This document shows, piece by piece, positions 10,201 through 59,760 of a stretch of DNA of 64,000 nucleotides. Made by a program: the position numbers and the translations under genes. Below the pieces are notes generated by a model. That model was not told the origin of the DNA and ran no database searches. It worked only from the letters and a program-made list of their open reading frames with translations. Every line of letters starts with the position of its first letter. Positions within the stretch are counted from its first letter, which is position 1. Source of the stretch: Heterotrichella gracilis (taxonomy: Eukaryota > Sar > Xanthophyceae > Tribonematales > Xanthonemataceae); assembly GCA_032358255.1 (NCBI GenBank), contig JAULBX010017303.1, positions 25,311 through 89,310 on the forward strand, in the 5' to 3' direction.

Positions 10201-13200
10201 TGCCTCCTCCCCGACCCTCGCCCCACCACCCGCCACCACCCCTGGGGAGGCGCCATCCCCCATCGCCTCCCCCTTTGTGCCCCGCTCGGTGGTGCGCCCC
10301 CTGTTCTATGAGTCAGATAATGACAGCGTGACCTCCTCCCGCATGGCGCAGCAATTGGCCACAGTGACGGCTGCGGCGGCAGGCATGGGCATCCAGGAGG
10401 ACCTCATGCTGTTCGGGAATGACACAGGTAGGGTTTAGGATTGGGAACCCGAAGCTAGGGTTTTGATCACAGCAATGGCTGCGGCAGGCATGGGCATCCA
10501 GGAGGACCTCATGCTGTTCGGGAATGACACAGGTGGGGTTTAGACTAGGAACCCTACGCTAGGGTTTCAGTCACAGTGACAGCAACAGCATGGGCATCCA
10601 GGACTGATAGGGTTAAGGGTTTGGGTTGAGACCCTAAGCAGTGGTGTGTAACACAAATGGTGGCCAATCAGTCAGACAGAAGGTCTAAGGTGGCTAGGGT
10701 TTAGACCAAGAACCCTAAACATGTGATGGACAACCGGCGTCCAGCCTGACCTCAAGAACCGGTACCCCAGTCAGAAACCTGTGCCCTGATTATAGCAATC
10801 TTTGTGTGAATACAGGCAGCAGCCAGTTGGTGGACAACCCCGCCTACAGCCAGACTGAGGGAGAGATTGTCGCTGCGCTGGGTGGCGCCCGCCTGTACAG
10901 CAACCCTAGCTTTGAGAAGGACGATGCCCTCCTGCGGGAGGCCACCGAGGAGTTTGAGACCCCGCACGAGCTGAACGACATCACGGGGATGTTTGCGCCA
11001 GACGCGCCAGGCGGTAGGTCCAAACTATAAACCCTAAACCCTACACCTGCTAATGGCGTGATTTTTGCACGTGCTGGGCAGTAGGTGTAAACCCTATTCC
11101 TTAAACTTTGCATTAGCTTAATCGGGTTTCAAGGATGTTTGTGCCAGATGTGTCAGGCGGGAGGTATAAGCCATAAGCCTAAAACCCGCACCAGCGTAAA
11201 TGGGTTACAGGGATACTTGGCCCAGACATGAAACATGTTGCGCAGGAGGTCTAGAGGTTGACCTAGACACCTAGTACCTTCGAGGTTCATAAATGTTGCA
11301 GGCAATGTCCCGACAGGCCTGCATGGTAAATGTTGCTGGTTGCTGGGAACCCAATTCCATTCATTTTCCTCTTTACTGACTGCTTGTTGTGCCACTTCAG
11401 CAACTTCCTCCTCTCTGCTCGACACCCACACCTCCCTGCTCAACACCTCGGCACTGGCAGATATGGTGCTGCTGCCACAAGAGGCGGTGGCCATATGCAT
11501 TGGGGAGGATGGGGCGCCGGTGCTGCTGGGGGCGACTGAGTACGCACAGGTAAGCGGAGATGCTCATGGGGCAAGCAAGCTTTATGTACGGGTCTTTGCC
11601 AATTGAAATGTCATGGAGTTGCCTTTTAGTATAATCCGGTAGTTGCAGTGTATGGTTCCAGCCCATATGCGTGTCAATCTACTCGTGGTCAAGAAATTTG
11701 ATGTCCCACAACTCATAATTATTTGCTTTCTTTATATTATGTTGACTTTTGTTATTATCCGCTTTGCAGGTGTTCAAGGGCGTCCTGAACGGCAGCCAGG
11801 AGGTAGCTGTCAAGGTGATCACCAAGCCCCTGGACGAGGAGCACAAGAAGGCGCTGCTGAGGGAGGTGCTGGTAATGCATGACTGCGATAAGGACAACGT
11901 GGTGGCATTCCATGGGGTCTGCCTCAAGGTAGGGGCACACAGCTGGGCTGTCTAGGTGGTCAATCTCAGCACACGAATATGTTTCAGCATAATTTAATAT
12001 TATTGTCAAAAATGTCTTCTGCTGGAAGTTCCGGTAATACAGTCAGTTTCTGGCCACTTGGCTTTGAATGCCTAGCGCAGGCAGTCCTCTTCTGTGCCAA
12101 TATTCAACCACATATGAGCTGGATGATCATGTCATGAGTTCCAATGATGATGAAGTGACACTCAACCACCGGTGCGTATGTGCAGGGTGACCAGGTGATG
12201 CTTGTGACTGAACTGGTGAGCAACGGCAGCTTGAGGGAGGCCCTTGCATCAGGCACAGAGGACTTTTCATGGAATGGAAGGTGCGGCAAATAACAAAGCG
12301 TGAAAAAATGCCATCCCAATGCAGTCGGGGGGTACATCGCTGCAATGCCGGCTCGATTGGGACTCCTTAGGCTCAGGCTTTGAAATCAATTATGCCAAGT
12401 GGCTCTTGTCGCCGTCTTTTTGAAGGCCATGGCATTGCTTATTCCTTCAGGATAATATAATATACATGCCACCCCTGTCCATCCCATAATACGATTTTAA
12501 ATCCTGACTATTTTTCCCTGTCTCCAGAGGCAAGGCCATTGCCCTGGAGGTGGCCCATGCGCTGCTCCAGCTGCAGAACCACGTGCCCAAGCTCGTCCAC
12601 TACAGCCTGACCAGCAACAACGTGATGCTTGGCTCCAGCGGCACAGCCAGGCTGAGCGACGTGGGCATGAGGAGGGCGGTGGCTGGCGACTCTGCTGGTA
12701 AGAACCAACTCCCAACCCACCCATTGTTGTGAGGGTGGTTTAAATTTTTTTGGTTATTGCGGTATGTATTACAGCAGCTGGATCGGACACCAGAACTATC
12801 AAGGTACAAAATAGAGAAAGCACATTGGAAAAAGAGCACATATTGCCTGCTGCGTTGAACAAGTACATTCCTCACACTAGCCTGAAATATGTGGCAAGAA
12901 CTTTTACACTGTAATCTCCTGGAGGAATCCATCCACCCACGGTGGGCACAAGCCACCCATTCCTGCCCAGCACCATGATGAATTGCAACCACCACATGCG
13001 CCTTTGACTCACCTGCCCTTGGAGCCTCATGCAGGGTCCGATGCCTGGTCCTCCCCCGAGGTGCGCCTGGGCCAGCGCTGCAGCGAGAAGGTGGACGTGT
13101 TCAGCTTTGGTGTGGTGCTGTGGGAGATGGTGTGCACGGGGGAGACGCCTGTGCTCGGGAACATGCGGGCACCAAGGTAAGGCATGCCTGCAAACCCTGT

Positions 13201-13515
13201 AGGGTATACGCCTCTGTGCATCCCCTTTCTTTTCTTCTGTGAGGCGTGCCGTAGGGCAGCAGTAGGCGTCTGCATCAGTAATTACAGATAAAGGCCATTT
13301 TAGAGGAAGATATTGTACTGGCCACATTCCTCTCACGCACCATCAACAGAGTCGGTTAGAGGGTGACAGAACATGTGTATTTCCTGCGCAGGGTGCCCCA
13401 GGAGTGCCCCGACGTTGTGTGGAAGCTCATCATGGACTGCATGGACCCGACACCGCAGCTGCGCCCCACCGCCAGGCAAATCATCCAGATCCTGACAAAT
13501 GCGCCCCAGGCCTGA
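1252..13515 (+). CDS. Single-pass receptor-like protein with repeat/lectin-like ectodomain and TKL-type pseudokinase domain
   Basis: Twenty-six exons chain in frame to 1863 residues: 1252-1327, 1602-1732, 1830-2094, 2308-2492, 2780-3062, 3340-3795, 4146-4361, 4609-4733, 5002-5209, 5589-5830, 6085-6283, 6516-6692, 6965-7147, 7460-7924, 8155-8352, 8581-8760, 8927-9085, 9412-9462, 9672-10427, 10816-11013, 11401-11549, 11770-11928, 12186-12280, 12528-12697, 13035-13176, 13392-13515. Order: signal peptide (1-24); Cys-containing modules with a CPxGxxIxxF core (about 220-795); two alpha/beta-looking modules flanking a ricin-B-like segment (916-1070); a Pro-rich stalk; a membrane helix near 1267-1286; a Ser/Pro-rich juxtamembrane region; and a kinase fold from about 1620. 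The VAVK Lys (K1649) and alphaC Glu are present, but HRD is HYS (Ser1745) and DFG is DVG, so phosphotransfer is doubtful. Almost all ectodomain introns are phase 1 or 0, as in shuffled modules. Ligand and partners are unknown. Confidence 0.85.
9167..9325. repeat. Intronic minisatellite-like direct repeats
   Basis: Within the receptor intron after exon 17, the 20-plus-base unit beginning ACACGTTGTGGATCAAGGAC occurs at 9196, 9247 and 9277. The flanking ACTTGCCA(A/T)CTGGACTGAA element is also duplicated, at about 9169 and 9303. The structure indicates local tandem duplication. No coding role is seen. Confidence 0.85.
10360..10610 (+). repeat. Echoes of receptor exon 19 end and its donor site
   Basis: The last roughly 70 bases of exon 19 with its donor (10360-10438) reappear nearly intact at 10468-10542, including the GACACAG/GTGGGG donor, and again as a shorter copy at 10569-10610. 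The copies are separated by AGGGTTT-type heptamers. A copied exon 20 end with a donor-like GGGAGGTATA also lies at about 11130-11166. The first donor is chosen because it keeps phase with exon 20. Confidence 0.85.
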
Positions 13516-23946: not shown

Positions 23947-24973
23947 TTATGCGTTCTTCTCCTTTTGGACCACCACCTTGAACACCCCGTTGACCTCGGG
24001 GTGCAGCTTGATGGTCGCCTCGTACGTGCCAAGGGTCTTGATGTCTGGCAGCATCATGTCCTTCTTCTCAAGCTTCCTAGCTGTCTGCTGGAAGATGGCG
24101 TCAACCACCTCCTGGGTCGTCACGCTGCAACAAACAACCCACCGCCATTGTGAGTACCACGCGAGGGTGTGCCTTGCATGGGGCAGGACCCAAGTACCCA
24201 AATTGCTTTGTGCACGCACCTGCCGAAAATCTGGTCCTTCTCTCCGCACTTCTTCTTGATGATGAACTTGCCGATGGTCGCCAGCGCCCTGGCCATAGCC
24301 TCAGCCTTGGCCTTGACCTGCGGTGCAGCGGGTGTCCAGTGGGTTGCTGCGCTGGCCAATTCATTGCGCTGGGGTCATGCTGGCAGCTAGGTACACAGAT
24401 GTTGAACAAACAGACGGCTTACCTCAGCCTTTGCCTTCAAGTCTAGGTCCTTCTCCTGCTGGATGCGCCTGAGTGCATAGGGGAATGCATGTCAGCAAGA
24501 GAACCACAACTGTTGGCCAGCCACCCATGGGCAGCAAGGCTGAACAAGTGCAGTGGACCAACGTACTCCAAGATGGTCTCTGTTGCCTGCTTGGCATAGC
24601 CTTGTGGGGACAGGTAGTTCCTGAAGTAGCCAGTGGGCACGTTCTTGAGCTGACCAGCCACGCCCAGACCCTGGATGTCCTTCACAAGGATGACCTGCTG
24701 CTTCTTCTGCACCCGCTTCTGGGCAACCACCTGGAAGGGCCGTACCTGCCTGGTGGCACACCTTGACGACGCTGTCAACGCGCTTGTCTGTGCCTGTGAA
24801 CATAGGCTGGAGGTGATGCACATGCATAGTACAGGCATGAGCAGGAATTCCTCAACCCGAAAATACCTCACCCACAACACAAACATGGTAATAAGCAGTT
24901 ACATGCACGTGCACACGTCACGTACCGCGCCACTTGCCCGTAGGCCTTCGTAGGCCTTCAGTTGCAAACTCAT
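23947..24973 (-). CDS. PRPL9: Plastid large-subunit ribosomal protein bL9
   Basis: Five exons chain in frame to 198 residues: 24973-24926, 24793-24567, 24468-24423, 24317-24220, 24124-23947. The first about 40 residues ([16 protein letters not shown] then Ser/Thr/Ala-rich) behave as a chloroplast transit peptide. The bL9 N-terminal domain follows, with [15 protein letters not shown] and the rRNA-binding [13 protein letters not shown] motif, then a long Lys/Glu/Ala helix, the FGSVTTQE junction and a C-terminal domain ending [10 protein letters not shown]. bL9 sits at the base of the L1 stalk in bacterial-type ribosomes, here presumably the plastid ribosome. Length fits the family plus transit peptide. 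It shares a divergent promoter region with HYPK, another ribosome-associated protein. Confidence 0.93.
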
Positions 24974-40067: not shown

Positions 40068-41402
40068 TCAATGGCATGTGAGGTGTTGCAGAGGGTGTTC
40101 ATGCCGCAGTGGGTGGCAGGAGTGTGGGGGGAAGGCCCATGGCGGTGGTGGTGGGAAGTGCGCCATGTGGTGGTGGTGGTGGCCGGGGTAGTGGTGGTGG
40201 GGAGATGGGTGGCGGCGGTGGTCGCGATGGTGGTGGCGGCGGGGCGAATGGGGTGGGGATGGGTGGCGATGGTGGTGGTGTGGGGGCGGAGGTGGAGGGG
40301 GTGAGTGGTGATGGTGCGCGCCGGGTGGGGGCGGAGGTGGGTGATGGTACACTGCCCCTGGTGGTGGTGGGTAATGGTGGTGGTGGTGGCCCGGCGGCGG
40401 CGGCGGTGGGTGGTGTGGGTATGCCCCGTGTGGGTGTGAGAAAGGCGGCCCAAACGGTGGTGGTGGGTGGTGGTGGTGGTGGCCCCTGTGGTGGCGGCGG
40501 TGGTGGTGGTGGTGGCGCCTGTGCTTGTCAGCGCCGCCATGCGCACGGGGGCTGCTGCTACCACTGCTGCTGCTGCTGCTGCCGCTGCGGCGGTGGTGGT
40601 GGTGGTGACGGTGCTTGCCCGGGCTACCATGCCTGTGGGGGCTCCTGCTGCCACTGCTGTGCCTATGGCAGTGGTGGTGGCGGTGGCCGTGATGGTGGTG
40701 CTCATGGGTGCCACGTTCCCCCCCACACCCACCCCTCTCCACCACCCCTTCCTCCCCTGCTGCGCCACCCGCGACACCCACCTGGCCACCCTCAGTCACT
40801 GTGAAGGTGACCCTGACTGCTGGCAGGGGGTTTGGCTGAGGCTCCTGGTTAGGGTTTAGGGTGAGCCCTGCCAGTGCTGCTGCTGCCTCGTGGACCGGGC
40901 TGGCGGGGGGTTGGGGGGCGCTGGCGGTGGGTGTGGAGGGGGAGTGATGTGGCGCCGGGTGGGAGGGGTGGTGGTGCAGGTGTCCACCGGGAGGTGGTGG
41001 TGGGTGGTGGGGTGGCCCATGGTGGTGGGGTGGGCCATGGTGGGGGTGGGGGCCCCCATGGTGGTGAGGTGGGCCATGGTGGGGGTGAGGACCATGGTGG
41101 TGGTGAGGAGGGCCATGGCGGTGGTGGTGGAGAGGAGGGCCATGATGGTGGAGGTGGAATGGCGGCGGCTGGTCGAAAGGTGGGGGGGAGCGGAAGCCGG
41201 TTGGGGGGAGCCCGGTGGGGGGTGGCAGCACCTCCCCAGCACCCGGCATGGCCCAGGCTGGGTGTGGGTGGAAGGGATGGAATTCGGACTGGTCCCCTGG
41301 CAGAGGACTTCCGGAGCGATAGCTCCCTTCCTCATCGCTGTGCGAATCGAAAACCTGCGCCGGGTCGCCTTGGCTTGGCCTGGGTGAGACGTGGTCCGCC
41401 AT
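40068..41402 (-). CDS. Histidine/proline-rich low-complexity protein
   Basis: A single 444-residue open frame starts at an ATG at 41402. The first about 75 residues look like ordinary protein (MADHVSPRPSQGDPAQVFD, SDEEGSYRSGSPLPGDQSEF). They are followed by long blocks of HHH, HHGPP and PPPP, an ordinary patch (RVTFTVTEGGQVGVAG, about 200-215), a Ser/Arg/His patch (RSGSSSSSSGSSSPR) and more His/Pro. Such polypeptides can bind divalent metals or form condensates; neither is shown here. The opposite strand is also open as Gly/Val-rich frames, a by-product of the CCAC/GTGG composition. I prefer the minus strand because of its non-repetitive N-terminus. Introns cannot be excluded; a CCCTAAACCCTAACC string lies in frame as LTLNPNQ. 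Confidence 0.6.
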   Translation of the reverse strand: MADHVSPRPSQGDPAQVFDSHSDEEGSYRSGSPLPGDQSEFHPFHPHPAWAMPGAGEVLPPPTGLPPTGFRSPPPFDQPPPFHLHHHGPPLHHHRHGPPHHHHGPHPHHGPPHHHGGPHPHHGPPHHHGPPHHPPPPPGGHLHHHPSHPAPHHSPSTPTASAPQPPASPVHEAAAALAGLTLNPNQEPQPNPLPAVRVTFTVTEGGQVGVAGGAAGEEGVVERGGCGGERGTHEHHHHGHRHHHCHRHSSGSRSPHRHGSPGKHRHHHHHRRSGSSSSSSGSSSPRAHGGADKHRRHHHHHRRHHRGHHHHHPPPPFGPPFSHPHGAYPHHPPPPPPGHHHHHYPPPPGAVYHHPPPPPPGAHHHHSPPPPPPPHHHHRHPSPPHSPRRHHHRDHRRHPSPHHHYPGHHHHHMAHFPPPPPWAFPPHSCHPLRHEHPLQHLTCH

Positions 41403-42080
41403 TGCTGAAGGGTCCTGCAGAACGTTGAGTTTGTGTTAGTTCGCGTATGCAACCTCCAGCTGATAGGTTACAGTGGACAAAACAACAGCCAGAGATGCAG
41501 CTTGCTTCAGGGATCCAAAAGGGAATAGTTTTGCAGTCGAGGTGGGTGTCGGAAGCCAGTTGCGCAGCTGAGGGCATGCCCTGCTACCCTCCAGAAAACT
41601 CCACGAAGCACGCAGATACTGGGCAAAAGCAACCACGTTGTGCAACCTTAGACTCAATAAGTTTAATGCGTGGCGTGCGCTAGTGCTTTCGTGTCAGGTT
41701 TCAAGCAGGCCCGTACCTTAGCCGCGAGGTGGGCGAGGGTAGTTCAATGTACAGCCGAAAGCTTCTGTTCACCCCAACGATTCGGTGGGGCTCCCTTGTG
41801 CAGCTGTGCTCGAGTAAACAGCAGGTGTTTTTGCAAAAGGGGGTTGTTGTTGTGGGCGGTTGTGCCTTATCAAGTCATGGCATGCTTTTAGGGGAGGAAC
41901 GCAGGTTAATAAGGCGGGAAGGAAAGTCGTCGCTCTCGATTCATGTACATGAATTTGCCCCCCTGGCCAAAACGGAGGGGTTTATAAAGCTCTACAAAGC
42001 AAGCTCGACACCCAATTAATCGCTCCTTCTGAGCTGCAGGAACAGGATTCCATTCCGTTGGACACCCTCTCGGCCGCACC
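41403..42080. promoter_or_regulatory. Divergent promoter region (His-rich gene / phosphogluconolactonase)
   Basis: This 678-base gap lies between opposing ATGs at 41402 and 42081. No coding exon is seen. No individual elements could be assigned. Confidence 0.45.
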
Positions 42081-43345
42081 ATGCAATCCCAACTCGCCTC
42101 TGGCCTGGGCAGCCCTCAGAGACTTGCCCCCAAAGTTGGAAGCTCTGCCTCGCCAGTTGCCCCCCGCTCCTCCCGCCGCAGCTTGACAGTGGCAAACAGC
42201 GCACAGCAGACAGCCCCTGCCAAGGTGGAGGTGGTTGAGGAGGCAGGCCCAAGCTCTCGGATCAACCTCATCCCCAAGAGCAGGTAAGGCCCCGTTTCCT
42301 CCAACCTGCACTACTACCTATCTGTTCTGGATGTTTGGTTCGCTAGGCAGCTGGTTCTTGTCGCACCACCCATCCTCTGCCGTGAGTGGTTGCGTAGACC
42401 CTTTTCCTTCAACTTGCATCTCTCGCCGTCAGGTGGAACAAGGGCATCCCCCCGGTTATGGGAGCCCACCTCATGGCGTCTGGTGTCGTGGCTCCTATCT
42501 CTACCTCCAAGGGCGTGGAGCGCACTCCCTTCTTGTTCTACTACCCAGAAGGCGACGTGGACATCACCATTGCGCAATATGGGACCCCATCATCAGCAGC
42601 TGCTGGGTTGGCCGAGGTGGTAGCCGCTGCTTCCGCCAAGGCGATTGCCACTAAGGGGGCCTTCACAGTTGCGCTGTCAGGAGGCTCTCTGGTGAACACA
42701 CTCACAGCCCTGCTGGACAAGAAGGACATTGACTTCTCCAAGTGGTATGTCTTCTTTGTGGACGAGAGGAACGTGGCTCACACCTCGGATGACAGCAACT
42801 TCAAGGCAGCCAACGAGGCCCTGCTGGGCAAGGCAGGCATCCCATCAGACCAGGTGTTTGCCATCCACGAGGGCCTCAGCCCCAAGGACGCAGCCATCAA
42901 CTACGCTGGGAGGCTGATTGGACTAGACAGCAAGGTGATGCCCACCGAGAATGGCATCCCAGTGTTTGACACCATCCTCCTTGGTGTGGGGCCCGATGGC
43001 CACGTGGCGTCCCTCTTCCCCAACCGCAAGCAAACAGCAGACAAGACCAACCTGGTCTTGCCAGTGGAGAACTCCCCCAAGCCCCCAGCGCAGCGCATCA
43101 CCTTCACCTTGCCCCTCATCAACGCTGCCAAGGACGTGATCGTGGTGGCCATCGGGGCGGGCAAGGCGGAGATCGTCCACAGGGTGTTGGAGGTGCAGGC
43201 GCTTCCCGGTGCCCTCCCCGCACAGCTGGTTCGCCCCACCAATGGCAAGCTGACGTGGCTGCTGGATGCAGCGGCAGCAACAGAGCTCAAGCCCGAGCAG
43301 TGGCAGAACTCCAAGGCCTACCCCAGGAGCCAGGTCAAGCAGTGA
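42081..43345 (+). CDS. PGL: 6-phosphogluconolactonase, probably plastidic
   Basis: Two exons (42081-42283, 42433-43345) encode 371 residues. The enzyme hydrolyses 6-phosphoglucono-lactone in the oxidative pentose phosphate pathway. Signature motifs are present: LSGGS (149-153), FFVDERNV with SDDSNFKAANEALL (about 175-200) and LGVGPDGHVASLFP (about 250-263). The first about 45 residues are Ser/Ala/Arg-rich with few acidic residues and read as a chloroplast transit peptide. Between it and the catalytic domain is an unexplained but non-repetitive segment (WNKGIPPVMGAHLMASG, about 69-85). The start is the first in-frame ATG of a good exon, and the single intron is phase 2. The protein is longer than bacterial PGL (about 230-270) because of this N-terminal part. 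Confidence 0.93.
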
Positions 43346-47700: not shown

Positions 47701-49790
47701 CTTGATCTGGGGAGGGGGAGGGAATACGAGGGTGAGGAGGGGAGGGGAGGGGTGGGTGGGCCAGCAGAGAACTTGTGTCGCATGACAGGGTGATAGGCGT
47801 CAGAGAATTTGAGAGTAGTTGGGATTTGCCACTACCTTTGGCCTATTGAGCATCCAACAAGATCCCGCTGCGCTGTGTCAACTCTACTAGGAATGCACCG
47901 CATCAACCTGTATTGGAAGGTGCCTTGCTATGGCTAAGCGAAGGATTTTGCTCAAGGAAGGCACAAAGAATTTGAGAGTAGTTGGGATTTGCCACTACTT
48001 CTGGCCCAGTGAGCATCCAACAAGTTGCCGCCGTGCTGGTGCATCTATGCTGTGTAGAATCAATAGGAATGCACCGATTCACCCTGTGATAGAGGGTGGC
48101 CTTGCTAGCTATTGTCAGTTTGCACACGTTCGATACATAGTTCTTCATTAGCTCACTTTTAGGAAATTCGGCAGCTCAGCATCATGGCTGCCAACCCTAA
48201 ACCCAAATTCTAAACAGAAAACCCTAGGCTCGCTGTGCCCCCACCTGTGGCTGCAGCTGCAGGCTGCCAGTGCTTGCCCAGCTGGTGCAGTACTTGCGTG
48301 TGAGGGCCTGCAGGGCGGGCAGGTAGGACTGCAGCGCGCGAGGGCTGTAGGCTGCGGAGCTCACTTTCTTGAGCTTGTCATGGGGTCCAAACTCCAGGTT
48401 AACCATGGCGTTGGGGCCCAGCAGGGCGCGCACGGAAGGGGGCCAGGCGGCTGCAAAAATATGGAATACATATTACTTGATTATGGACCAAGCAGGAGGA
48501 GCTGAATAAATCACATGGAAGTCCTTCGGAAACAAGCAGATAAAGATAAGAAATGTATAGTTATCATGCAGCCTGTTTTTGGCACTGGAGCTGGCGAGGG
48601 GAGGCGGAACCCTCCTGTCCACTACATCCCCTACCATAGTTGGTTGATGGCCAACCGGGCTGCACAGGAAAGGTGGGGACAACGGGTGTGGCTCTTGCAG
48701 TTTGCAAAGAGCCTCCCACATATGCCAATAGCTTACGCTGGTATAATTGCTGTAGTGCACCACTGGCAAGATATTATGAGTGCCAGTACCCTGGGGATAA
48801 TGAAGCCAAAAAACGCCGACACACACATGGGACAAGAGGCCACTTGGTGATGTCAACACATACCTTCCACCAGGTCGTGCTCTGCCATGAGCAGCTTCCT
48901 CACGTTTTCAAAGCCACCCACGCACACAGTCCTCCTGCCCAGCAGCCTCGTGCTGTACACGTCCCCAAACTGCTCATGGCGCTTGTAGGCCAACCCCAGG
49001 TCTGCTGTCAAAAAGGCGATGGTGTCGTCCCCCACTATGGGTACCTGCAGTGAAGGCCCTGGGGGAGGCCTGAGTCTCCTGCACACAGAGGACAAGGTAC
49101 TGAGAATGATTGAACCCCATGGAGCAATGATTGGCTGGGGTTTGTAAGGGCACACTGATGCTTTGCTGCTGCAAAAGTATCTCAACTTTTGTTCTTTGAT
49201 TTGGGTTGGACAGTTTGAAATTCCTGGAGGATTCTGTGTTTCGTGCAGACAGAGTATGAGGACCTTCACAGGTGCATGGCTTGATTCTTGGTCAAGCAAG
49301 GGATGAGGCATGGAAGTGCAGGGGTTGGGACGCAGGAAAAGAGACCGCTGACACCCAGCCCAACTCCACTGTTGGGGTAAAAAGTATACAGCTTCAATAA
49401 GAAGGTTTTGCAGGATTCAATGTTGTTTTTGATAAGGCAGTTGCAAGCCACAGCCACTGCCACAGCCACAGCCACTGCCACAGCCACAGCCACACATTGC
49501 AAAGGGACATGCCGTGGGAATGCGATGGTGGCCTTCTTTCCGCAAATCGACCGTGCAACGGCTTCCGACATAGCTCGCCTTCCATACACTGTTTTTATAT
49601 GAACCCACCTCACATCTTTATCCACCTGTTCGCCTTGCCTTGCCATCCAGCTAGTCGAGAGGAATAGCACCAGCACAGCCACAGCTGCACCCAGCGTGAT
49701 ATGCAGCACGGAGTGCGCATCCGCTGGGTCCAACAGCGCGTGCAGGCTTTTGACGGAGCCCAACGTGGTACTGTTGGTCAAGGACGCCAT
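44772..49790 (-). CDS. Cytochrome P450, CYP26/CYP120-like (CYP85 clan)
   Basis: Ten exons chain in frame to 512 residues: 49790-49609, 49078-48864, 48450-48245, 47706-47556, 47203-47122, 46826-46733, 46354-46235, 45914-45750, 45377-45177, 44894-44772. A membrane anchor lies at about 29-48. Then come a Pro-rich hinge (RPPPGPS), the LLGRRTVCVGG/ENVRKLL strand-helix that is characteristic of CYP26/CYP120, the substrate-region motif LPINLPG, the oxygen-activation helix AGHDTT (319-324), ExxR (E377-R380), the PERF-equivalent FNPDRW, and the haem loop FGGGLRMCLG with Cys461. All catalytic signatures are intact, so it should be an active haem monooxygenase on the ER or an envelope membrane. Relatives oxidise retinoids, carotenoid products or sterol-like molecules; the substrate here is unknown. 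No pathway neighbours are seen. Confidence 0.93.
47430..47498. repeat. Near-perfect 32-bp inverted repeat in a P450 intron
   Basis: The arms 47430-47461 and 47467-47498 match at 30 of 32 positions around a 5-nt loop (CTGAT). The element lies in the intron between exons 4 and 5 of the P450 gene. It is a tight foldback, a candidate hairpin RNA or palindromic insertion. Confidence 0.9.
47811..48110. repeat. Diverged direct duplication in a P450 intron
   Basis: A segment starting GAATTTGAGAGTAGTTGGGA at about 47809 is repeated at about 47968 (offset near 159 bases), with shared downstream words GAGCATCCAACAAG and AGGAATGCACCG. The copies differ by several substitutions and small indels. Confidence 0.8.
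49440..49497. repeat. GCCACA / GCCACT hexamer microsatellite
   Basis: Alternating GCCACA and GCCACT hexamers run from about 49448 to 49494, within the first intron of the P450 gene. Confidence 0.9.
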
Positions 49791-50345: not shown

Positions 50346-53300
50346 ATGTCCCGGGCAGTCCACTTGGGTGGTGTGGGCGCCGCCACCACCCTCGAGGATG
50401 TGGTGAAGGTGGCGCTGGGCGCGCAGGTGGCTGTGGACGCCATCATCCCCGCCACCAAGCCAGATGCCAGCGCTGACCAGGTTGCACTGGTGTGCCCCGT
50501 GGACCGAGACAATCCCCCCCTCCCCCTCACGAAGCCCCAGACGCGGGCCGCCGTCTTCTCCAAAGCGGTCGCCCTAGCAGCCTGCAAGGGCAAAGTCAGG
50601 GGCTCACTGGTACACTATTTGGCCCAGATGCTCAACCACGACATCCCCCTGCAGCTACCTAACGCGCAGTCAGACGGGCCGGCGATGAACGCCATAGCGG
50701 CGGCGATCGTGGCGGGGCCGCCCTCCTCTGACGGGTTCCTGGACAAGGGGGTTGAGGTCCCGGGGCTGAGGGGGGATGAGATGGCGCCTGCCCACACTGG
50801 GCTGAGTGTGTCTGTGGGGTGTGCAGCGCTGGCGATGGAGGCAGCCAGGCAATTAATCGCAGCTGCCACGGGGGTTGCAGCCCTGTCCTTTGAGGCGACG
50901 CAGGCACAGGTAGGGGCTCCCTGTGAAAGCAACTCATCGTGATATTTACAATTCCCACCGCCGCTGTGCATCCACCCTTGCAACCACCCACAACCCTGAC
51001 TAAGGGTATTGCTGTAGGCCCCGCACCCTTCAGGGCACTCATGCCCACTTTCCGCAAGGTTCTTGCGGCTGCCCTCCAGAAAACCCTAACAAAAACCCTA
51101 AACCCTTACCACCCCAGGTCAAGGTGCTTGACGAGGAAGGGGGTGAGCAACAGTCAAAGAGCAGCGGGGAGGTTGTGGCTGCCCTGCAGGGCCTGGTTGA
51201 TGGGTCCAAGCAGGTCAACGGGCGCAAGGCAAAAGCGACAGTGCCGCTGGTGCAGGCGCTGCCGCAGGTGGGGATGGGGCTCTAGGGTCTAGGGTTCCAC
51301 TGGCGCAGGTGGTAAGAAACGCCTAGGGATTAGGGTTCCGCTGGCGCAGGCGCTGCGGCAGGGGAAGATTGAGCTATAGGGTGTAGGGTTTTCAATTATG
51401 CATGCGCTGCCTAAACTGCAACCAGTGCTCCTGGGTTTGGGTAGACCCTAAACCCTAAACCCTAAACTGGGCATTCCAGCAAAACAAGCATGTGGCAGCC
51501 AGGTTGACCTGTGGTCACACCACCTCACCCCCCCACCCCCCACCCGTGCAGGTTCACGGGCAGGTGCTGGATGCGCTTGCAGCGGTGCGCACCTGCGCCC
51601 GCACCCTCCTACTCAACCCCGCTGTTAACCCCCTGGCGCCCTCCCCAGTGTTCCCCAATGCGCTTCTCGCCCTGGGCCAATGCCTTGTGGCGGTGGGGGG
51701 TGCCAGCTTGAGGCGCGCGCAGGCGGTGGTGGCGGCTACGAGTGAGGTGGCGGGGGGCCCGGAGGGTGGGGAGGTGGCGGCGTGGTGTGCGGCGCTGCAG
51801 GTGGGTGGTGGGCGGGTGGAGTGGGCGGGTGGGGATGCTTATAGATGAGCATGGAGTGGGGGCAGGCTGGTGGGAGGTATTATCATGGGTGCATACCTGT
51901 AATACAATACCACACAATGCATGGAGGTATAGGCATGGCATGTGGTGCCTGCCACATGGCGCATTGTGCATGGTGCACGGTGAAGCGCGGGCAACTCAGA
52001 TGATTCATCCCGCATGACCCACCATGTCCATCCACACCCGTGCATCAATCCACCCCCCCACACACGAACACACACACCCCTCTCCACCCACCTCCACCCA
52101 CCCACACACACATAACTTGCAGGCCCAGATCACCAGCGCCACCGCTGCATTGGGCGTGTTGCGCGTGGCGGGTGCGCAGGCCGCTGGCCAGGTGGCGCTC
52201 AGCGACGAGGGGTACCCCTGCCTGCGGTGCTGCGCGGTGGTGGAGGAGTGTGTGGCGGGGGTGCGGGGGGTGCTGGCGCTGGAGGGGGTGGCGGCGCTGG
52301 TGGCACTCAGGCAGCAGGAGGTGGGTGTGGTGGTGGTGGTGGTGGCGGTGGTGGTGGCGGTGGTGGGGATGGTGCTTGTACCCAATAAAGTGGACGTTAC
52401 AACTACGCCTTCTGGGGCGCTTGCTGTTTCGTGCTTTGTAAGATGCATTTCAGGAATGCAGATACAAACAAACAAACAAACAAAAGGCATTCCCAGCCGT
52501 CATCGGCTTATTGCCCCTGAAGGGCACACATTTGCAGATATACTGGGGCAACAAGCTGTTCCATGCTGGCACTGACTACATTCTTTTTGCACAATACAGT
52601 ATGTGATGCATTTCACGGCACCTAGGTTCTCGGTGTGCCCATAGGTCAGGCCCTTGGTGTAAGGCCTTTCAGAGTCTCATTTTATATTCCATGAAAAGTT
52701 TTTTTAGGGTGTTGTGCTTGCCCCACAGGGTCCCGCACAGGCTGCATCCGACGCCCCCCCTGCTGAGGAGGAGCAAGGGAAGAAAAAGGATAAGAAGAAG
52801 GGGAAGTCGGCAGGTGTGGCCCTGGGCAGGGGGAGCGCGCTACTGAGGGGGTACCTGGAGGGGGCGGCGGTGGGGGGTGGGGTGGAGGATGTGGCGGCCA
52901 GGTAGGTGGGGGAGTGGGAGAGTCGGTGGGGTGGGGTGGGGTATTAGTTAGTTAGTTACATGCATTCCAGCAATACAGCCAGATTGCAGTCAGTCTTGCA
53001 CATGGGGTGGGGTATTCCATGATGCATATGGCAGTTGCATGTGGTAGTTGTGGGGTTGTGTGTGACAAGGATGCCAGCGGGCCACCCCACCAGTGGCATC
53101 AACATTTTGACCCACCGATAAATGCCACTCACATTCAAAACAGCTGGATCACTTATCTCATTGCTTGCAACGTTGTGGTACCACACCCTCCCCCCCTCCC
53201 ATATACGGGTGCCAGCGCAGCAGCAGGCAGCGCATGCGTGCTTTAATGCTTGCTTTGCCATGGTGGCCCGCGCTTTTCTCGCTCTCCTTAATTAAAAGAA

Positions 53301-56300
53301 ATGTATGTTCTAAATTATAATATCTTTTATTCCAACATTAATTTGCCCCATCCCGCAGGTTCCTGAGCCTGTCCCTGGATGCCAGCTCAGCAGCAGGCAG
53401 CGCGGTGGCATCCAGCCTGGCGGGTGTGGGCGCGGCACTCGACCCCATGGGTGCGCCCCTCAAGGCACAGCTAACAGGGCTGCAGGCGGTCATTGAGGCC
53501 AACCAGGTAAACCCTGCAGGGCATGGCGAGGGTGAGGAGTTACCATTGTGTATGCTTGTGCTTTGAAGTGGGATGTTATGGTGGAGTGCAATGATGGTTG
53601 AAATCCTGCACAATGGGTTGTGCAGAAGGTTGTGGCCAGTTGCTGAAGAAAGCGCACACACGCGCAAGCCCAAAGGGGCAGTAATTATTTGTAAAACATT
53701 TCGCGTAAATTGCCTCCCCCAGGCGCGCTTAAGCCCCAAGCAACCCAACGGAACTTTCATTTGACACTCAAATTCAATTGCATGTGTATACGACCACCAT
53801 GCACATCTCCCTACTGTGAATGTATTCCCAGTAAACCCACCCCCCTCCCCACCCCTCAGACGCGTCGCAAGCCCAAGCTCCCCAAAAACAAATAAAAGTC
53901 TGATCTAATACAAATACCCCCCCCAAAATCCCACCCCCCACCCCTCAGACGCGTCGCAAGCCCAAACTCCCCAAGGGCACCCGCGACTATTTGCCCGACC
54001 AGATGGCCATCCGCCAGGTGGCGTTCAACCGCATCACCGCTGTATTTGAGCGCCACGGGGCGGTGGCCATTGACACCCCCGTGTTTGAGCTGAGGGAGAC
54101 GCTGATGGGGAAATACGGGGAGGACAGCAAGCTGATCTATGACCTGGCGGACCAGGGGGGGGAGATACTGTCGCTCAGGTGGGGAAACACACCCCACAAT
54201 GAATTGTATGCATTGCTGCATGGGCCTTGCGTCCTCCATCATGCCACCCATGTTCTCGTACCACCTACTCCATGACTATTTTCTATCCCCGATAGAGGAA
54301 CCCCCTCACCTCTCTGTGCACCACCCATCACCACAGCACACACACTGCCGCCCAAAATCTGCACGACTTGTTCTATCTCTGCCAGGGGTACTATCCCACC
54401 ACCACAGCACACACACTGCCCCCCGCAATCCCTCACCCCAACCCCACACTCCCCAGGTATGACCTCATGGTGTGCGCCACGTGGTCATGCCTGGCCTGAG
54501 CAACTCCAAACGTGCCATCCTAAAACCCTAAACCCCAAACCCTACTATATTACGCCTGTACCCCTCTTCTTACACCACCACACAATTACACCACCACCAC
54601 CCAACCTCACAACCCCCTCACCCCACCCGCCACGCTCCCCAGGTACGACCTGACGGTCCCCTTTGCCCGCTACGTGGCCATCCACGGCCTGGGCAACATC
54701 AAGCGCTACCACGTGGCGCGCGTGTACCGGCGCGACCAGCCGCAGATGAACCGGGGGAGGTTCCGGGAGTTCTTCCAGTGCGACTTCGACATCGCGGGGA
54801 CCTACTCGCCCATGGTGCCCGACGCGGAGGTCATCAAGGTGAGACATTTGCATGACCCTGGGGAATTCGCACTAAGCAATATGTGAGGATTTATGTACTA
54901 AGCAAATTGTGAAGCATTGATGGGGACCTACTCGCCCATGGTGCCCGACGCGGAGGTCATCAAGGTGTGTGGAGGGGAAATCTGGCACATATGCATGTGT
55001 TATGAGGCCCTCGTGATGAGGGGCTCACGTGCAAATTTGAGACATCAGGAGGGGCATAAGAGGACTCTGATTTTCATTACAATAGCTCATCTTTCTTTTT
55101 GGTGCCATTCATTACACCCAACAAAGTGCGATTTTGACATCGCGGGGGCCTACTCGCCCATGGTACCCGATGTGGAGGCCATCAAGGTGTGTAAGGGGGG
55201 TGGAAGACTGGGGTTTAGAAATATGCATGCCTTTCACGGCCTTTCACCATAGTGGAGCACTTGATGTTTATGCATGCCATGCATAGGATGCACTTTAGAG
55301 ATAAGGAGCAAGACTACTTTTCAATCGATCACATAATCATCAGGCGGTAGGGTGTTGATCGTGATGGTAGTATGGTTCTCCCTCCTGCAACGTGCCAAAG
55401 GATGAATTGAAAAGTGTGATTTTTTCTGTCACCCTAACGCTGTGTGCCACCTGTGTCCTCTATCGCTATATCACTGTGTGCCATGATTTCCCGCAGGTTG
55501 TTGTTGAGATCCTGACCGACCTTGAGCTGGGTGAGTTTGAGATCAAGCTGAACCACAGGGGGCTGCTGGACGCAATACTGGACATTGCGGGGGTGCCGCC
55601 ACAGAAATTCAGGTGGGGCACAAATGCTTGGCTTTCAAGCATTTTCTGTTTTTTCTAAAATGTATTGAATGTAGTGGAGGTCGTGCGCTACTGTAGCGTG
55701 ATGGTGATCGTCGTATGTTACAAGCATATTGTCCCATTGGCAATTACAACTACAAGAAAGCTGATAGGACTCAGGGCGCTAGACGCATTACCCTGAAACC
55801 CTGAAACCGTCATGCAGGGCCATCTGCTCCTCCATCGACAAGCTAGACAAAGAGCCATGGGATAATGTGCGCGCGGAAGTAATCTTAAAACCCCATTACA
55901 AACCCGAAACCCTTCGCACCCGGCAGGGCCATGCCAGTCACGCCACAGGAATAACCCTGAAACCCCATTACAAAACCCTAAAACCCTTCCTATGCTGCAG
56001 GGCCATCTGCTCCTCCATTGACAAGCTAGACAAGGAGCCATGGGAGGTGGCGCGCTCAGAAACAACCCTAAGAGCCCATTACAAAACCGTAAAACCATTC
56101 CCTGCCGCAGGGCCATGCGCACAGAAGTAACCCGAAAACCCCATCACAAGAACCTAAAACCCTTCGCTCCCGCAGGGCAACGCGGACAAAATTAACCCTA
56201 AACCTCATTACAAAACCCAAAAAACGTCCCGTCTTGCAGGGCAATCTGCTCCTCCATCGACAAGCTAGACAAGGAGCCCTGGGAGGTGGTGCGGGCTGAG

Positions 56301-58850
56301 ATGGTGGGGGACAAGGGGCTGGAGCCGGAGGTGGCGGATGCGATTGGCGAGATGGTGGTGCTGCGGGGGGCGCCTCTTGAGCTTCTGTCCAGGCTGACTG
56401 CTGAGGGGAGCAAGCTGGCGGGGCACCAGGGGGCAAAGGTGGGTTCTGGTACTAGGTAGCCCAGTACTAGATGCATCCCAGAGTTTGCCAGCCGTGCACA
56501 AAGCGGCCGCAAGATTTGTTGTCCTGGGTGGAATTTGGGGTATTAGTTGGAGTTATGCATAAATACGACACCAATACTTAGTTATCGAGATGGATGTACA
56601 ACGGGTGGCACTGCTGGCGCGGCAGAGTGCAGTAAACTGATGGGGGACCAGGAAGCAAAGGTGGGCTTGGTGGTGGTGGTGGTGGTGGTGGTGGGGGTAT
56701 CGAATAGAGATGGATAAATATTAAAACTGCAAGAAGGAACAAGATGGTGGAAAATTTTACTCCTTAGACAGCCTTAGATGGTGTTCTCTTAACGACATTT
56801 GGTTGAGGGGGCAACCCCCTTGAGGAGATGCGGCTGCTGATTGACTTGCTAGGCTCAATGGGCACATTAGACCTCTGTCATTTTATTGCATTTGATCGCA
56901 TTTAATCACATACATCCCCCCCTGCAGGTTGCTCTTGAGGACATGCGGCTGTCGGTTGACTTCCTGGGCTCCATGGACGCATTAGGACCCCTGTCATTCA
57001 ACTGCATTTGATCGCATTTAATCACATATACCCCACCTGCAGGCTGCTCTTGAGGACATGCGGCTACTGTTTGACTTCTTGGGCTCCATGGACGCATTGG
57101 GGCCCCTGTCATTTGATCTCAGCCTGGCCCGGGGGCTGGACTACTACACAGGGGTGATATACGAGGCGGTGCTCAAGGGGGCGAATGTGGGGTCAATTGC
57201 AGGGGGCGGGAGGTGCGTGCGCAGGGCATTGCCTGCCAGAAACCCTTCACCCTTCTGCGGGCCCTTACAGGCAACACATGTGGTTGCTTTGAGCTTGCTG
57301 TGCACCCCGTTGGCTGTCAGCCTGCCCCTGCACCGTTTGGCCCTACCTGTGCTTTGCTGTGTTGCTGCTTGTTTCTACCCCTCCTCCTCTCAGTTCCTAC
57401 CCCGATGTACCCATCTGCACTTTCCTCAGAGGCAACAAATGTGCTTGCATCAGTGTACATTTGAGCCCCATATCCCTTGCATGCACCAACCGCATGCATC
57501 CATGTAGCCGCAGTGATACCCTCATCCAATGTATGTGTATTCACTCCAGAGTTACTTTCATGGGGGCCCATCATATGCCCCTCATTTTGTGCTCATCCTC
57601 CACCCCCATTCACACCCCTTCCCCCCCCCGCAGGTACGACAAGCTTGTGGGCATGCTCAGCGGCAAGGATCTATTAGGCTCTTATTTCATGATATCATAT
57701 TTATGACATTGTCTATATTTTTCACTGAGTTTTATCCCACGCAGGTACGACAAGCTTGTTGGCATGTTCAGCGGCAAGGATGTGCCTGCGGTGGGGGTCA
57801 GCGTGGGGATTGAGCGCGTGTTTGCAATCATGGAGGCGCAGGTAAGGAAAGGGGAATCGAGGCACATTTGCACACCCTGCACTTTGCATGCCCTGCTTCG
57901 ATTGTAATATACGGGTGTTTGCCAGCATGGCATGCCGGGAAGAAAGGACAAGTGGCTGTGTGGGGAGGGGGTGCAGGCGCGACCTTGGAGCCCAGAGCAG
58001 TTTGGTAGATTGCATGCATTGCAGTAGTACAGCCTGCCACATGGCGCGTGCACCTGGAATGAAGGCCGCAGGGCGTGAACCACGCATGTGACTCCCGCTG
58101 CATGATCCGCACGCATTGTTCCCTACAACCGCCACCCCACACCCCACCCCACCCCGCAGGTGCGGGCCCAGGCTGCTGCTGCGGGTGGCAGTGTGCGTGA
58201 TGCCCACACTCAGGTGCTGGTGGCCAGCATCGGGTCTGGGCTGCAGGGCAGGAGGATGGAGCTGGCGGCGCAGCTGTGGCGGGCGGGGATAAAGGTGGGG
58301 TCAAAAACCCTAAACCTAAAGCCTAGGCTTACACCCTGAACCTAAACCCTAAACCTAAACCGTTGACTTACTGGCGGCGCTGCTGTGGAGGGCGGGGATG
58401 AAGGTGGGGTCAACTTTTTTAATTAAGTGTAAACCCTAAATCGTAACCCTCGCGTCACTGGTGGTGGAGCTATGGCAGGCGGGAATAAAGGTGGGGGATG
58501 GTGTGGGTGCGCATGCAGGGCTTAGTTTAGGTTCAGGCCAAACCCTAAATTTGAACAACCCGAACCCTGAAACCCTTAACTCTAAACCTTAAACCCTGAC
58601 CTTGCAGGCCGAGTTTGGCTTCAAGCCCAACCCCAAGATGGGCGACCAGCTGGGCGCCGCCCTTAAGGGGGGCATACCACTCATGGTGCTGTTTGGGGAG
58701 GACGAGCTGACCAAGGGGGAGGTCAAGATTAAAAACCTGAGGGAGGAAACCGAGGCGAGCGTGCCTGTGGGGGAGCTGGTTCCCGAGCTGCAGCGGCGCC
58801 TGGCGGTCATCACACCCTCGCTCATTGTGCCGGGTAGCTACAAGCAATGA
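50346..58850 (+). CDS. HARS: Cytosolic-type histidyl-tRNA synthetase with long N-terminal extension
   Basis: Fourteen exons chain in frame to 955 residues: 50346-50909, 51118-51267, 51552-51800, 52123-52320, 52729-52901, 53359-53506, 53949-54178, 54643-54838, 55497-55612, 56240-56438, 57043-57212, 57745-57841, 58160-58294, 58608-58850. The class II core starts near 495: [35 protein letters not shown] (motif 1 region), [25 protein letters not shown] (motif 2), the His-binding [23 protein letters not shown] and [11 protein letters not shown] (motif 3). The C-terminal 150 residues form the anticodon-binding domain. The 494-residue Ala-rich helical extension, with a Lys-rich KKKDKKKGK near 434, corresponds to the extension of land-plant cytosolic enzymes, which has been noted as lyase-like; I infer homology, not function. 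No transit peptide is obvious. Introns are dense with exon-edge echoes. Confidence 0.93.
53851..53886 (+). repeat. Echo of HisRS exon 7 acceptor
   Basis: ACCCCTCAGACGCGTCGCAA and the next about 15 bases duplicate the acceptor and start of exon 7 (true copy from 53940). After CCCCAAAAACAAATAA the copy leaves the exon and meets a stop. A similar partial copy of exon 6 (GCAGCAGGCAGCGC) sits at about 53215. Confidence 0.88.
54452..55200 (+). repeat. Echoes of both edges of HisRS exon 8
   Basis: An acceptor-side copy with about 50 diverged bases (CCCCAGGTATGACCTCATGG) is at 54452-54510, ahead of the true exon at 54643. Donor-side copies of the exon end (GACCTACTCGCCCATGGTGC through ATCAAG/GT) are at about 54919-54967 and 55127-55190. 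Both retain GTGTG donors. Confidence 0.92.
55812..56245 (+). repeat. Ladder of HisRS exon 10 acceptor echoes
   Basis: Copies of CTGCAGGGCCATCTGCTCCT and following exon sequence begin at about 55812 (about 70 bases of exon-like sequence) and 55996 (about 75 bases). Three truncated versions (GCAGGGCCATGC or GCAGGGCAACGC) occur at about 55922, 56107 and 56173, before the true acceptor at 56237-56239. Each is separated by AAACCCTNNAACCC-type spacers. Only the last stays open for the full 199-base exon. Confidence 0.92.
56809..57050 (+). repeat. Three tandem copies of HisRS exon 11 start
   Basis: The exon 11 start (CTCTTGAGGACATGCGGCT, TTCCTGGGCTCCATGGACGC) is copied at about 56809-56900 and 56925-57030 with the shared spacer TTGATCGCATTTAATCACAT. 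The third copy, at 57043, is the functional exon in phase with exon 10. An echo of exon 12 (CAGGTACGACAAGCTTGTGG) precedes the real one, at 57632 against 57742. Confidence 0.92.
58372..58500 (+). repeat. Two echoes of HisRS exon 13 donor edge
   Basis: The exon 13 end (GGCGGGCGGGGATAAAG with donor GTGGGG, about 58262-58300) recurs at about 58372-58412 and 58458-58498, each followed by a donor-like GTGGGG and separated by CCTAAACC-type heptamers. Confidence 0.88.
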
Positions 58851-59760
58851 GGGAGGGAGGGGACGGCACCGGGGAGGGGGGCGTGCGGGGCTGTCATGCG
58901 ATCACTGGGCTGTGCATGTGCTGGTATGGGGCTTGCGCCTGCGGTCACTGGGGATTTGCAAATGCTGCGGGAGCTGGAGTTCCCGAGTTGCAGTGGCGGC
59001 TGGCGGCAATCACGCCCTCGCTCATCGTGCCGGGGAGCTACAAGCAGAAAAGTGGGGAGGGGGGGACGCCGAAGGGGGGAAATGCATGTGCGATTATGCG
59101 GGCATGCATGCGATCCCTTGGAATGCACATATGCATTATGGAGCCAGGCATGTCCACTGCAAGGCTTTCTTTGCTGCCCATGAGAGAGACAACGAGTTCA
59201 GCAAGAGTAGGGTAGGGTCTTGAAATTTACGAGAAGTATCTCTTTGCCATTCCCTGCATACGGGCCTTCCATGTTGACCATGCAACTGTCCAACATCAGA
59301 TCAATCTGACAATAGTATGGTGGGATGTCCGGACGGTATATGGTATGCATAGTATGGTATTGCCTGCCCTGTATCAGTGGGTCACTGCAGTTCGTTCAAT
59401 CAGTAATTAGGGAATGGGAATGCCCATCATGATGCACATGCTTGGCAGCCTCAGACTCATGCTGCACTGAGTGGCCCTTAACAGCAGTATGCAAGCATGT
59501 TATAACGGTAGCTACTAGTATGCACCAGTGGCTCCATAACTACACCTTTGTGCGTCCCCTTTCTTTCTTGCTCTCTTCTCCTAGCGCATAATTGGACCCT
59601 TCCGTGAGCCATCACCCATGGCATGAGCATGCATTACATGAGTGCGGCGTCGCAGCGGCTGCAATTGATTGGCGCGTCGAGTGTGGAGTAAAGACTCTTT
59701 GAAATGGAATGCCATTAGCTGCGGCTATTAGTGGCTGCCAGTCAACTTGTCAATAACCCA
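58851..59760. other. HisRS 3' region containing an echo of the last exon
   Basis: At about 58972-59045 the last about 70 coding bases of HisRS are duplicated (GAGTTGCAGTGGCGGCTGGC, then CTCATCGTGCCGGGGAGCTA and CAAGCAG). The copy lacks the TGA of the real end (58848-58850). No other gene is seen; it presumably holds the 3' UTR. Confidence 0.7.

Follow-up and report, generated by a model that had tools for sequence, protein, structure and literature searches.

Why should introns carry copies of the exon ends beside them? The question is raised by a stretch of 64,000 nucleotides of Heterotrichella gracilis DNA (assembly GCA_032358255.1, contig JAULBX010017303.1, positions 25,311 to 89,310 of the forward strand), here called the window and numbered from its first letter, which belongs to a draft genome assembly of 68.5 Mb in 903 contigs. 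A sequence-only reading had counted about thirty intronic or flanking segments in three of its genes that repeat the neighbouring exon edge; we call such a segment an echo. The count was fair, as we listed 25 exon-edge/echo pairs at 21 edges in the window in addition to further ladder copies and pairs. Tandem Repeats Finder (TRF) and BLAST self-comparison placed the local direct repeats mostly in the same three genes, at 10.4-11.2 kb (the putative receptor, so named in the sequence-only reading), 30.8-37.2 kb (a TPR/PB1 gene, 'Phox') and 53.2-59.1 kb (histidyl-tRNA synthetase, HisRS). A few were found elsewhere, for example at 3.0, 9.2, 16.4, 47.8 and 51.2 kb, with low-complexity repeats near 40 kb. 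The genes said to be free of echoes were so: there was no echo pair in bL9 (23947-24823) or PGL (41495-43345), and for HYPK, which the gene finder fused with Phox, the negative rests on the span between 16.7 and 30.7 kb, in which BLAST gave no pair and TRF a single 37-bp repeat at 20.7 kb.

Chance and low complexity were ruled out as a source of the echoes by Markov-chain controls, which gave 0 pairs against 111 in the real sequence (26 stretches, 9 of them probably bacterial), and by nulls at other loci. Elsewhere in this genome, 16 further stretches had the same pattern. The exon-edge echoes are real, neither a product of chance nor peculiar to the window.

Concentration of echoes at exon borders

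The control sample consisted of 26 stretches of 10 kb, picked by contig number and not at random. Ten of these (L007-L015 and L035, GC content 33-43%) were left out as probably bacterial, and the 16 remaining stretches together with the window made up the analysed set of 224 kb. The low-GC contigs from which the excluded stretches came (C1, C111 and C100) resemble bacterial associates or contaminants. Genes were modelled with a small hidden Markov model (HMM) gene finder trained on the sample, and every count by region class depends on these models. The finder reproduced the HisRS exons, except that it ended the last one early at a false donor, 58833. We reclassed 46 predicted exons as non-exon, 26 of them for being shorter than 30 bp and the others for overlapping a repeat of a longer exon.

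Probes of 50 bp taken from exon edges had an intronic copy in 65 of 517 cases (38 of 258 donor edges and 27 of 259 acceptor edges). Among the control probes, the corresponding figures were 5/247 for mid-exon, 18/456 for intron interior, 0/118 for intergenic DNA and 0/36 for the inside of long exons, and unrelated targets gave 0. The edges far exceeded the mid-exon and intergenic controls that the sequence-only reading had proposed as a check, and the concentration at exon-intron borders was seen against the intron interior as well. Five draws in the 16 loci without the window gave 48/368 for edges, 2-5/174 for mid-exon, 7-9/163 for intron and 0-1/130 for intergenic probes; in the window, they gave 17/149, 0-1/73, 1-7/65 and 0-1/59, respectively. 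Intergenic probes had one match in 2 of the 10 group draws and otherwise none.

We also counted local direct repeats 30-600 bp apart as pairs (n = 134). Of these, 86 had one copy spanning an exon edge and its partner within the intron, as against 24.2 ± 4.4 under random placement. The other classes were seen less often than under random placement, with 23 wholly intronic pairs (36.1 expected), no intergenic pairs (20.5) and 5 exon-exon pairs (9.2). When pairs were shifted within 1.5 kb only, the expectation was 30.4 ± 4.5 border, 51.4 ± 5.2 wholly intronic and 5.7 ± 1.9 intergenic pairs. In the 16 loci alone, the border class held 61 of 89 pairs against 16.6 ± 3.7, a level attained in 0 of 400 placements, and in the window alone it held 25 against 7.2. 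With the length of the host intron allowed for, 64 of 70 events fell at borders where 34.3 ± 3.8 were expected; this count leaves out one border and one intronic event that lacked a bounded host intron. The excess did not depend on the repeat-guided clean-up of gene models, since border pairs numbered 64 against 25.2 in raw models and 77 against 21.8 when exons below 70 bp were dropped, and the edge probes scored 44/508 and 60/497 in these two sets against 3/237 and 2/249 for mid-exon probes. Pairs with copies at both junctions of one intron were absent from the cleaned models (0/134), while the less cleaned models held 3/134 (exons below 70 bp dropped) and 29/134 (all short exons kept). Since 29 raw-model pairs count as junction-junction pairs, some echoes could be real small exons.

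The echoes were unevenly distributed over the genes: 16 of 38 had any and 9 had three or more (chi-square 105, 37 degrees of freedom). Exon GC was 0.625 and intron GC 0.517. Base composition was considered as a driver and rejected, as the share of echoes in a gene was not correlated with GC (rho 0.16, p = 0.33). Introns with an echo (n = 57) had a median length of 485 bp and those without (n = 228) one of 297 bp, indicating intron growth at the edges and bearing out the intron expansion that the sequence-only reading had suggested.

Spacing, age and filler of the echoes

On the donor side, the order in gene sense was exon edge, short intron start, filler, copy of the exon edge with its splice signal, and remaining intron; acceptor-side events were the mirror image of this layout. 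The nearest echoes comprised 40 on the donor side and 25 on the acceptor side. Copy spacing peaked at 100-120 bp (25 of 86 pairs), and a second group near 200 bp was found among the nearest echoes. For 25 single-step spaced echoes, the spacing was 114 ± 17 bp, and the duplicated part and the filler were inversely related in length (r = -0.68). Purely intronic events were similarly spaced, at 81-122 bp in 5 of 7, so that selection on splicing seems not to set the spacing. The copies reached further into the exon than into the intron (mean 51 versus 29 bp in 41 spaced echoes, p = 3e-4). Direct pairs numbered 134 and inverted pairs 1. Some arrays repeat the filler also, and these we read as a later expansion of the first direct repeat. 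The statement that echoes carry the splice site and some intron held in general, although in 21 of the 65 nearest echoes the homology extended at most 19 bp into the intron. That splice junctions are what is duplicated did not hold for the echo at the 3' end of HisRS, which covers the stop codon and no splice site and which is counted among the 21 window edges and the 65 nearest echoes by way of the false donor 58833. The pattern does go beyond microsatellite growth, with a spacing of mostly 80-150 bp, exon-edge content and a tie to gene structure; the telomere filler by itself fits a 7-bp repeat.

Exon and echo differed at 7.9%, 8.1% and 15.7% of first, second and third codon positions, respectively, and such a third-position excess is what a free echo compared with a constrained exon gives. 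On average, the echoes are decaying neutral leftovers and not conserved decoys. The identity of the exon part ranged from 0.68 to 1.0 with a median of 0.894 (61 nearest echoes), indicating that the events were spread over time and that some are recent; because the echoes diverge in this way, assembly stutter is unlikely as their general cause. A single nearest echo was identical over at least 25 bp, namely over 43 bp at 54796-54838 in HisRS. Exon identity was at least 0.90 in 31 of 65 border echoes and one of 7 independent wholly intronic events was similarly recent (96.7% over 30 bp), a comparison drawn in considering the detection bias that a conserved exon copy could bring. An intronic pair of 98.7% identity in stretch L031 belongs to an echo array and was left out of the 7.

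Two features had been missed in the sequence-only reading: the preferred spacing of 100-120 bp and the telomeric nature of much of the filler. Telomere six-mers were present in 35 of the 64 gaps between edge and copy, whereas 500 draws matched for position in echo-free introns gave a mean of 7.1 and never more than 16. Of the seven-mers TTTAGGG and CCCTAAA, introns contained 163 (1.37 per kb), intergenic DNA 10 (0.24 per kb) and exons 2; we take TTTAGGG, the plant-type repeat, to be this alga's own telomere repeat. Introns held 178 perfect telomere dimers; of the other units 5-9 bases long with three or more distinct letters, the commonest reached 23, and scrambled motifs gave 0-1. The sampled telomere tracts were intronic in 101 of 105 cases, and 39 of 104 intronic tracts lay inside echo spans, which make up 9.0% of intron bases. 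Telomere six-mers were concentrated in the first 60 bp past donors, and those of the CCCTAAA type 20-40 bp before acceptors. Genome-wide, a donor motif followed by a telomere repeat was found at 497 sites (3 in the backward-read control) and the reverse order at 93 (control 4). CCCTAAA preceded TGCAGG 958 times and TTTAGGG did so 490 times, and exact CCCTAAA trimers numbered 834 (backward-read control 0). Among the matches listed, sites with a telomere repeat and a splice motif were by eye often paired or laddered about 90-120 bp apart (65634, 65747 and 65860 on contig C11), which is an independent sign of the same spacing.

Acceptor-side fillers held 4 six-mers of TTTAGGG and 44 of CCCTAAA, a scarcity that selection against false AG acceptors would bring about. 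Across introns as a whole, TTTAGGG is biased towards the first half and CCCTAAA towards the second (p = 6e-4); this is the direction expected from telomerase end addition, though selection on splicing could produce it too. Templating of the filler from nearby DNA was tried as its source and rejected, as the longest exact matches of the 29 non-telomeric fillers were like those of the control, except for one of 22 bases.

The HisRS gene and the echoes of the window

HisRS served as the reference gene. Its echo-free model has the coding exons 53949-54178, 54643-54838, 55497-55612, 56240-56438, 57043-57212, 57745-57841, 58160-58294 and 58608-58850 on the forward strand, the strand of all echoes described below, and in Pfam it matched both the core and the anticodon domain of HisRS (residues 10-444 of 461). 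In alignment with four green-algal HisRS proteins, all seven exon joins of the model were free of gaps, so the spliced HisRS needs none of the echoes. The nearest named relatives were green-algal proteins (Monoraphidium, Chlorella, Haematococcus and Dunaliella, 70-75% identity), and on the strength of these relatives the host is read as a chlorophyte. A 2.6-kb part of HisRS with several echoes and fillers had a genome-wide DNA match to itself only, and there was no useful paralogue among the matches listed by which to polarise the events. Long uninterrupted HisRS frames were present on contigs C1 and C111, and a second HisRS-like piece sits on C227.

On the acceptor side of HisRS, the edge at 53949 has an echo at 53841-53885 (span 53841-53974, exon part 0.962), and the edge at 54643 has one at 54397-54519, with telomeric filler between (54397-54705). 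Upstream of the acceptor edge 56240, TRF found a ladder of echoes amid degenerate telomere repeats (at 55807-55862 and 55941-56054, with some short copies; whole span 55807-56293), and upstream of the edge 57043 two copies of exon head and intron tail with a period of 115 (56819-57113). The echo of the acceptor edge 57745 lies at 57625-57670, and its homology begins 9 bp before the exon (57625-57781). Among the donor edges, the one at 54838 has the echo 54922-54967, identical over 43 exon bp and GTG and separated by 80 bp of non-telomeric filler (54796-54967); after the GTG, the intron sequence has no clear homology. A second, older echo of this edge is at 55124-55192. The edge at 56438 has a weak echo at 56622-56665 (56400-56665), with a BLAST score of 35.6 bits that falls under the later bit-score cut of 40. 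Two echoes of the edge 58294, at 58371-58413 and 58458-58496 (58262-58496), are each preceded by a different telomere-repeat filler (58305-58370 and 58414-58457). The copy past the HisRS stop, already noted in the sequence-only reading, was recovered by BLAST: the end of the last exon, 58768-58862, across the stop codon at 58848-58850, is repeated beyond the gene at 58966-59062 without a splice site (58768-59062). In a gene region upstream of HisRS, BLAST paired the donor edge 51267 with an echo at 51335-51390 (51241-51390).

Most of the remaining echoes are in Phox. Its donor edge 30978 has echoes at 31081-31134 and 31210-31307 with telomeric filler (30881-31307, BLAST). The exon 32527-32657 is echoed on both sides, at 32279-32374 on the acceptor side and in a tandem array of period 108 at 32605-32869 on the donor side (32266-32869, TRF and BLAST). 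At the donor edge 33240, 22 bp of exon and 7 bp of intron recur at 33303-33331 after 55 bp of unrelated, non-telomeric filler (33219-33331). The donor edge 33780 has echoes within 33826-33942 with CCCTAAA-type filler (33749-33942, TRF), and the donor edge 34331 has one at 34382-34432 (34293-34432). Two echoes with a period of 95 and telomere repeats in the filler stand upstream of the acceptor edge 35396 (35196-35428, TRF). An echo ladder of period 100 follows the donor edge 36457 (36413-36791, BLAST), and the acceptor edge 37115 has an echo at 36980-37020 (36980-37131, BLAST). In the receptor gene, TRF found one full and one partial echo downstream of the donor edge 10427, with a period of 105, TTTAGGG-type filler and an exon-part identity of 0.982 (10360-10603). 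The donor edge 11013 (10987-11056) is echoed at 11133-11203, with filler that contains AAACCCTAAACCCT (10987-11203). A third donor edge of this gene, 3062, lies beyond the range covered earlier and has an old echo at 3113-3170 (3011-3215, BLAST, exon-part identity 0.769).

Other repeats were seen beside the echoes. At 47801-48107 of the window, BLAST gave a tandem repeat of 145 columns and 77% identity, which is intronic, has no exon edge and is one of the few wholly intronic events; the host gene reads like a cytochrome P450 by its motif. The minus strand at 40068-41402 has a single-exon frame of 445 residues that is extremely His/Pro-rich with many internal repeats. In the control sample, positions 708-879 of stretch L025 hold an interspersed repeat of about 165 bp in a predicted intron. 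It has at least 40 or so genome matches (80-98% identity; 39 of the 388 candidates were scored) and may be a small transposon or an element resident in introns. Two segments in echo-rich introns of stretch L021 (8748-8901 and 9640-9813) have matches on other contigs, mostly of 71-80% identity, and both hit the same places but on opposite strands, a layout like that of an element with inverted ends; one match reaches 95% over 8799-8901.

Proposed repair of exon-border breaks and its rivals

While the pattern and its telomere link can be read from the DNA itself, we infer the repair route, the enzymes and the order of events. Our preferred reading, to which we give about an even chance (roughly 0.5), is that the echoes are long target-site-like duplications produced when staggered breaks at the borders of exons are repaired, in many cases with telomeric DNA incorporated between the copies. 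The strands would be cut some tens of bases apart, typically with one cut in the exon and the other in the nearby intron, and the ends would then be treated like a chromosome end, with telomeric repeats added or captured and the single-stranded overhangs copied. The product, which is what we see, is a border, telomeric or other filler, and the border again, by which the intron gains about 100-120 bp and a decoy splice site. To judge from the ladders, the new direct repeat may grow by slippage or unequal exchange into arrays in which the filler is copied too. The intronic copies would be neutral and decay, a step seen in part, and wholly exonic events would be purged by selection; filler in the TTTAGGG orientation is rare beside acceptors, where its AG could be misused. 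Paired-nick and 'patch-mediated' duplication models exist for plants.

Direct orientation combined with a duplicated target and filler is the signature of staggered-break repair, and the ratio of direct to inverted pairs fits fill-in and not free templating. According to an excerpt of PMC8355091, fill-in by CST-Pol alpha (53BP1-Shieldin) at 3' overhangs makes small tandem duplications, and the same complex fills in telomeres; an excerpt of PMC2246262 describes telomerase inserting repeats at breaks in mammals, with duplications in a minority. Since the fill-in complex is that of telomeres and telomerase acts at breaks, breaks at exon borders may be processed as telomere ends. Both the telomerase RNA-binding family and the Ku family had matches. 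Like the small tandem duplications of the PMC8355091 excerpt, in which telomere-maintenance machinery takes part, the echoes are direct local copies of tens of bases; unlike them, they are at exon borders, were not seen intergenically and often hold telomeric filler. The interstitial telomeric sequences of mammals, as excerpted from PMC2246262, are also short internal telomere tracts, sometimes with duplicated flanks or extra bases, whereas here 39/104 intronic tracts lie in echo spans, beside the 4.6-16% of loci with duplications there, and nearly all sampled tracts (101/105) are in introns. In the potato RdRp case (PMC4974935, in excerpt), an exon-intron region was likewise duplicated in tandem, and that gene also has an 83-bp intronic duplication; unlike in potato, existing introns grow here and no new intron was identified. 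No published case of exon-edge copies with telomeric filler was found among the open-licence papers listed, judged by titles and abstract openings.

Several observations weigh against this break-repair reading. It leaves the location of the events at exon borders unexplained, and their border preference departs from the absence of region bias that we, rather than any published criterion, would expect of general repair. No telomere six-mer was found in 29 of 64 fillers, and in the strict set 22 of 40 had no tract. If telomerase simply added to both 3' overhangs, the left end of the filler should have TTTAGGG and the right end CCCTAAA, an arrangement not seen in the strict counts (TTTAGGG 5 left and 3 right, CCCTAAA 10 left and 7 right); wider counts were 24 and 12 for TTTAGGG and 37 and 36 for CCCTAAA. 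Since the orientation was not as predicted, capture of ready-made telomeric DNA is equally possible. Telomere insertions with duplications made up just 4.6% in rodents and 16% in primates in the PMC2246262 excerpt. The further copying of the exon side was unclear in the 16 recent echoes alone (p = 0.10), the difference between edges and intron interior in the 16 loci had p = 0.005, and one window draw of intron-interior probes scored 7/65 against 17/149 for edges. Local shifting expects merely 5.7 ± 1.9 intergenic pairs against the 0 seen, a weaker contrast than the global 20.5. Moreover, the z and p values treat pairs as independent while the events are clumped in 16 of 38 genes, so these values are too strong and the error bars too narrow.

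The least doubtful of the alternatives is ordinary local tandem duplication that occurs everywhere, with survival and geometry alone putting the visible copies at exon edges: exonic events would be lethal, short introns would force units of about 100 bp across the junction, and border-crossing duplications would be harmless and keep a recognisable conserved exon copy. Small tandem duplications are common in humans and noted in plants too (excerpt of PMC8355091), and 23 of our 134 pairs are wholly intronic. This account is at odds with the 64 of 70 events at borders with intron length allowed for, with neutral intergenic DNA that held none of the 134 pairs (20.5 expected globally, 5.7 locally) and answered 0 of 118 probes, and with intron-interior probes at 18/456, below the 65/517 of the edges. 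A twofold detection advantage for pairs with a conserved exon copy was judged, not computed, to be too small to close the gap, and the telomeric filler is left unexplained. We consider it unlikely that telomere-like repeats came first and made introns fragile or slippery, slippage or unequal exchange then duplicating nearby exon edges. Echo density does track telomere density per gene (rho 0.69, 38 genes), introns with an echo have 10.6 telomere six-mers per kb against 2.0 in those without, 28 of 49 telomere seven-mers of echo-free introns are no more than 60 bp from a splice site (about 34% expected), and ladders with shared filler exist. On the other hand, the filler between the copies of single-step echoes is itself uncopied, with an exon part 90-100% identical and flanks without clear homology, 17 of 205 donor edges in introns without a telomere tract are still echoed, and a telomere-first order offers no route of telomere repeats to exon edges.

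The sequence-only reading had thought of a splicing-related product, and the marking of exon-intron borders is the part of that idea that stood. Splicing-coupled or RNA-guided copying of junctions, by R-loops, spliceosome-linked nicks or reverse transcription of pre-mRNA pieces, is nevertheless quite improbable to us. In its favour, homology stops 2-19 bp beyond the splice site in 21 of 65 nearest echoes, whereas in unrelated introns the splice consensus by itself accounts for a median of 3-4 bp. The HisRS stop-codon echo has no splice site, no exon-exon joined copies were noticed, with no dedicated search made for them, and nucleosome edges or the base composition of exons could equally well single out these borders. 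This echo and the further-copied exon side fit a coding-exon border at least as well, and the echo argues for that border over the splice site. An introner-like mobile element, or intron gain by AGGT tandem duplication, is very improbable. Introners bring large-scale intron change, mainly in fast-evolving groups such as green algae (excerpt of PMC9860276), an insert flanked by direct repeats would look alike, and some introns here contain dispersed repeats. Against them, the 2.6-kb HisRS stretch matches only itself genome-wide, 0 of 302 introns had a non-telomeric inter-locus match of at least 60 bp in a 224-kb sample that would miss modest-sized families, and no dispersed family stands behind the tested echoes. 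The target-site duplications of some introner families span 3-9 bp in that excerpt, far shorter than the tens of bases duplicated here, and AGGT gain needs the copies at both junctions that were seen in 0 of 134 cleaned-model pairs (3 with exons below 70 bp dropped, 29 with all kept). An assembly artefact is hardly credible even in a draft of 903 contigs that also contains low-GC, probably bacterial contigs, for the exon-part copies differ by a median of about 11%, mostly at third codon positions, the echoes keep to the structure of the genes, and telomere repeats track splice motifs across the genome.

Returning to break repair, splicing, R-loops, nucleosome edges or base composition may each mark the exon border. 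More tentatively than the repair itself, we propose a mutational process that would recognise exon borders in DNA or chromatin and repair breaks there as chromosome ends, with telomere insertion and border duplications of about 100-120 bp lengthening introns and creating decoy splice sites genome-wide. Intron growth has mostly been inferred from old, decayed sequence; here about 1 in 8 exon edges has a readable self-copy, and the copies span a range of ages and carry an inserted telomere-repeat marker that points to a repair route. With such material, a single-celled organism can be used to test where breaks fall, whether telomere-type repair acts at sites other than chromosome ends and how decoy splice sites arise. 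The exon-edge copies with telomere filler suggest that broken genic DNA is repaired like chromosome ends and that introns grow at their edges, which would show, as in our judgement few known processes do, a mutation dependent on exon ends.

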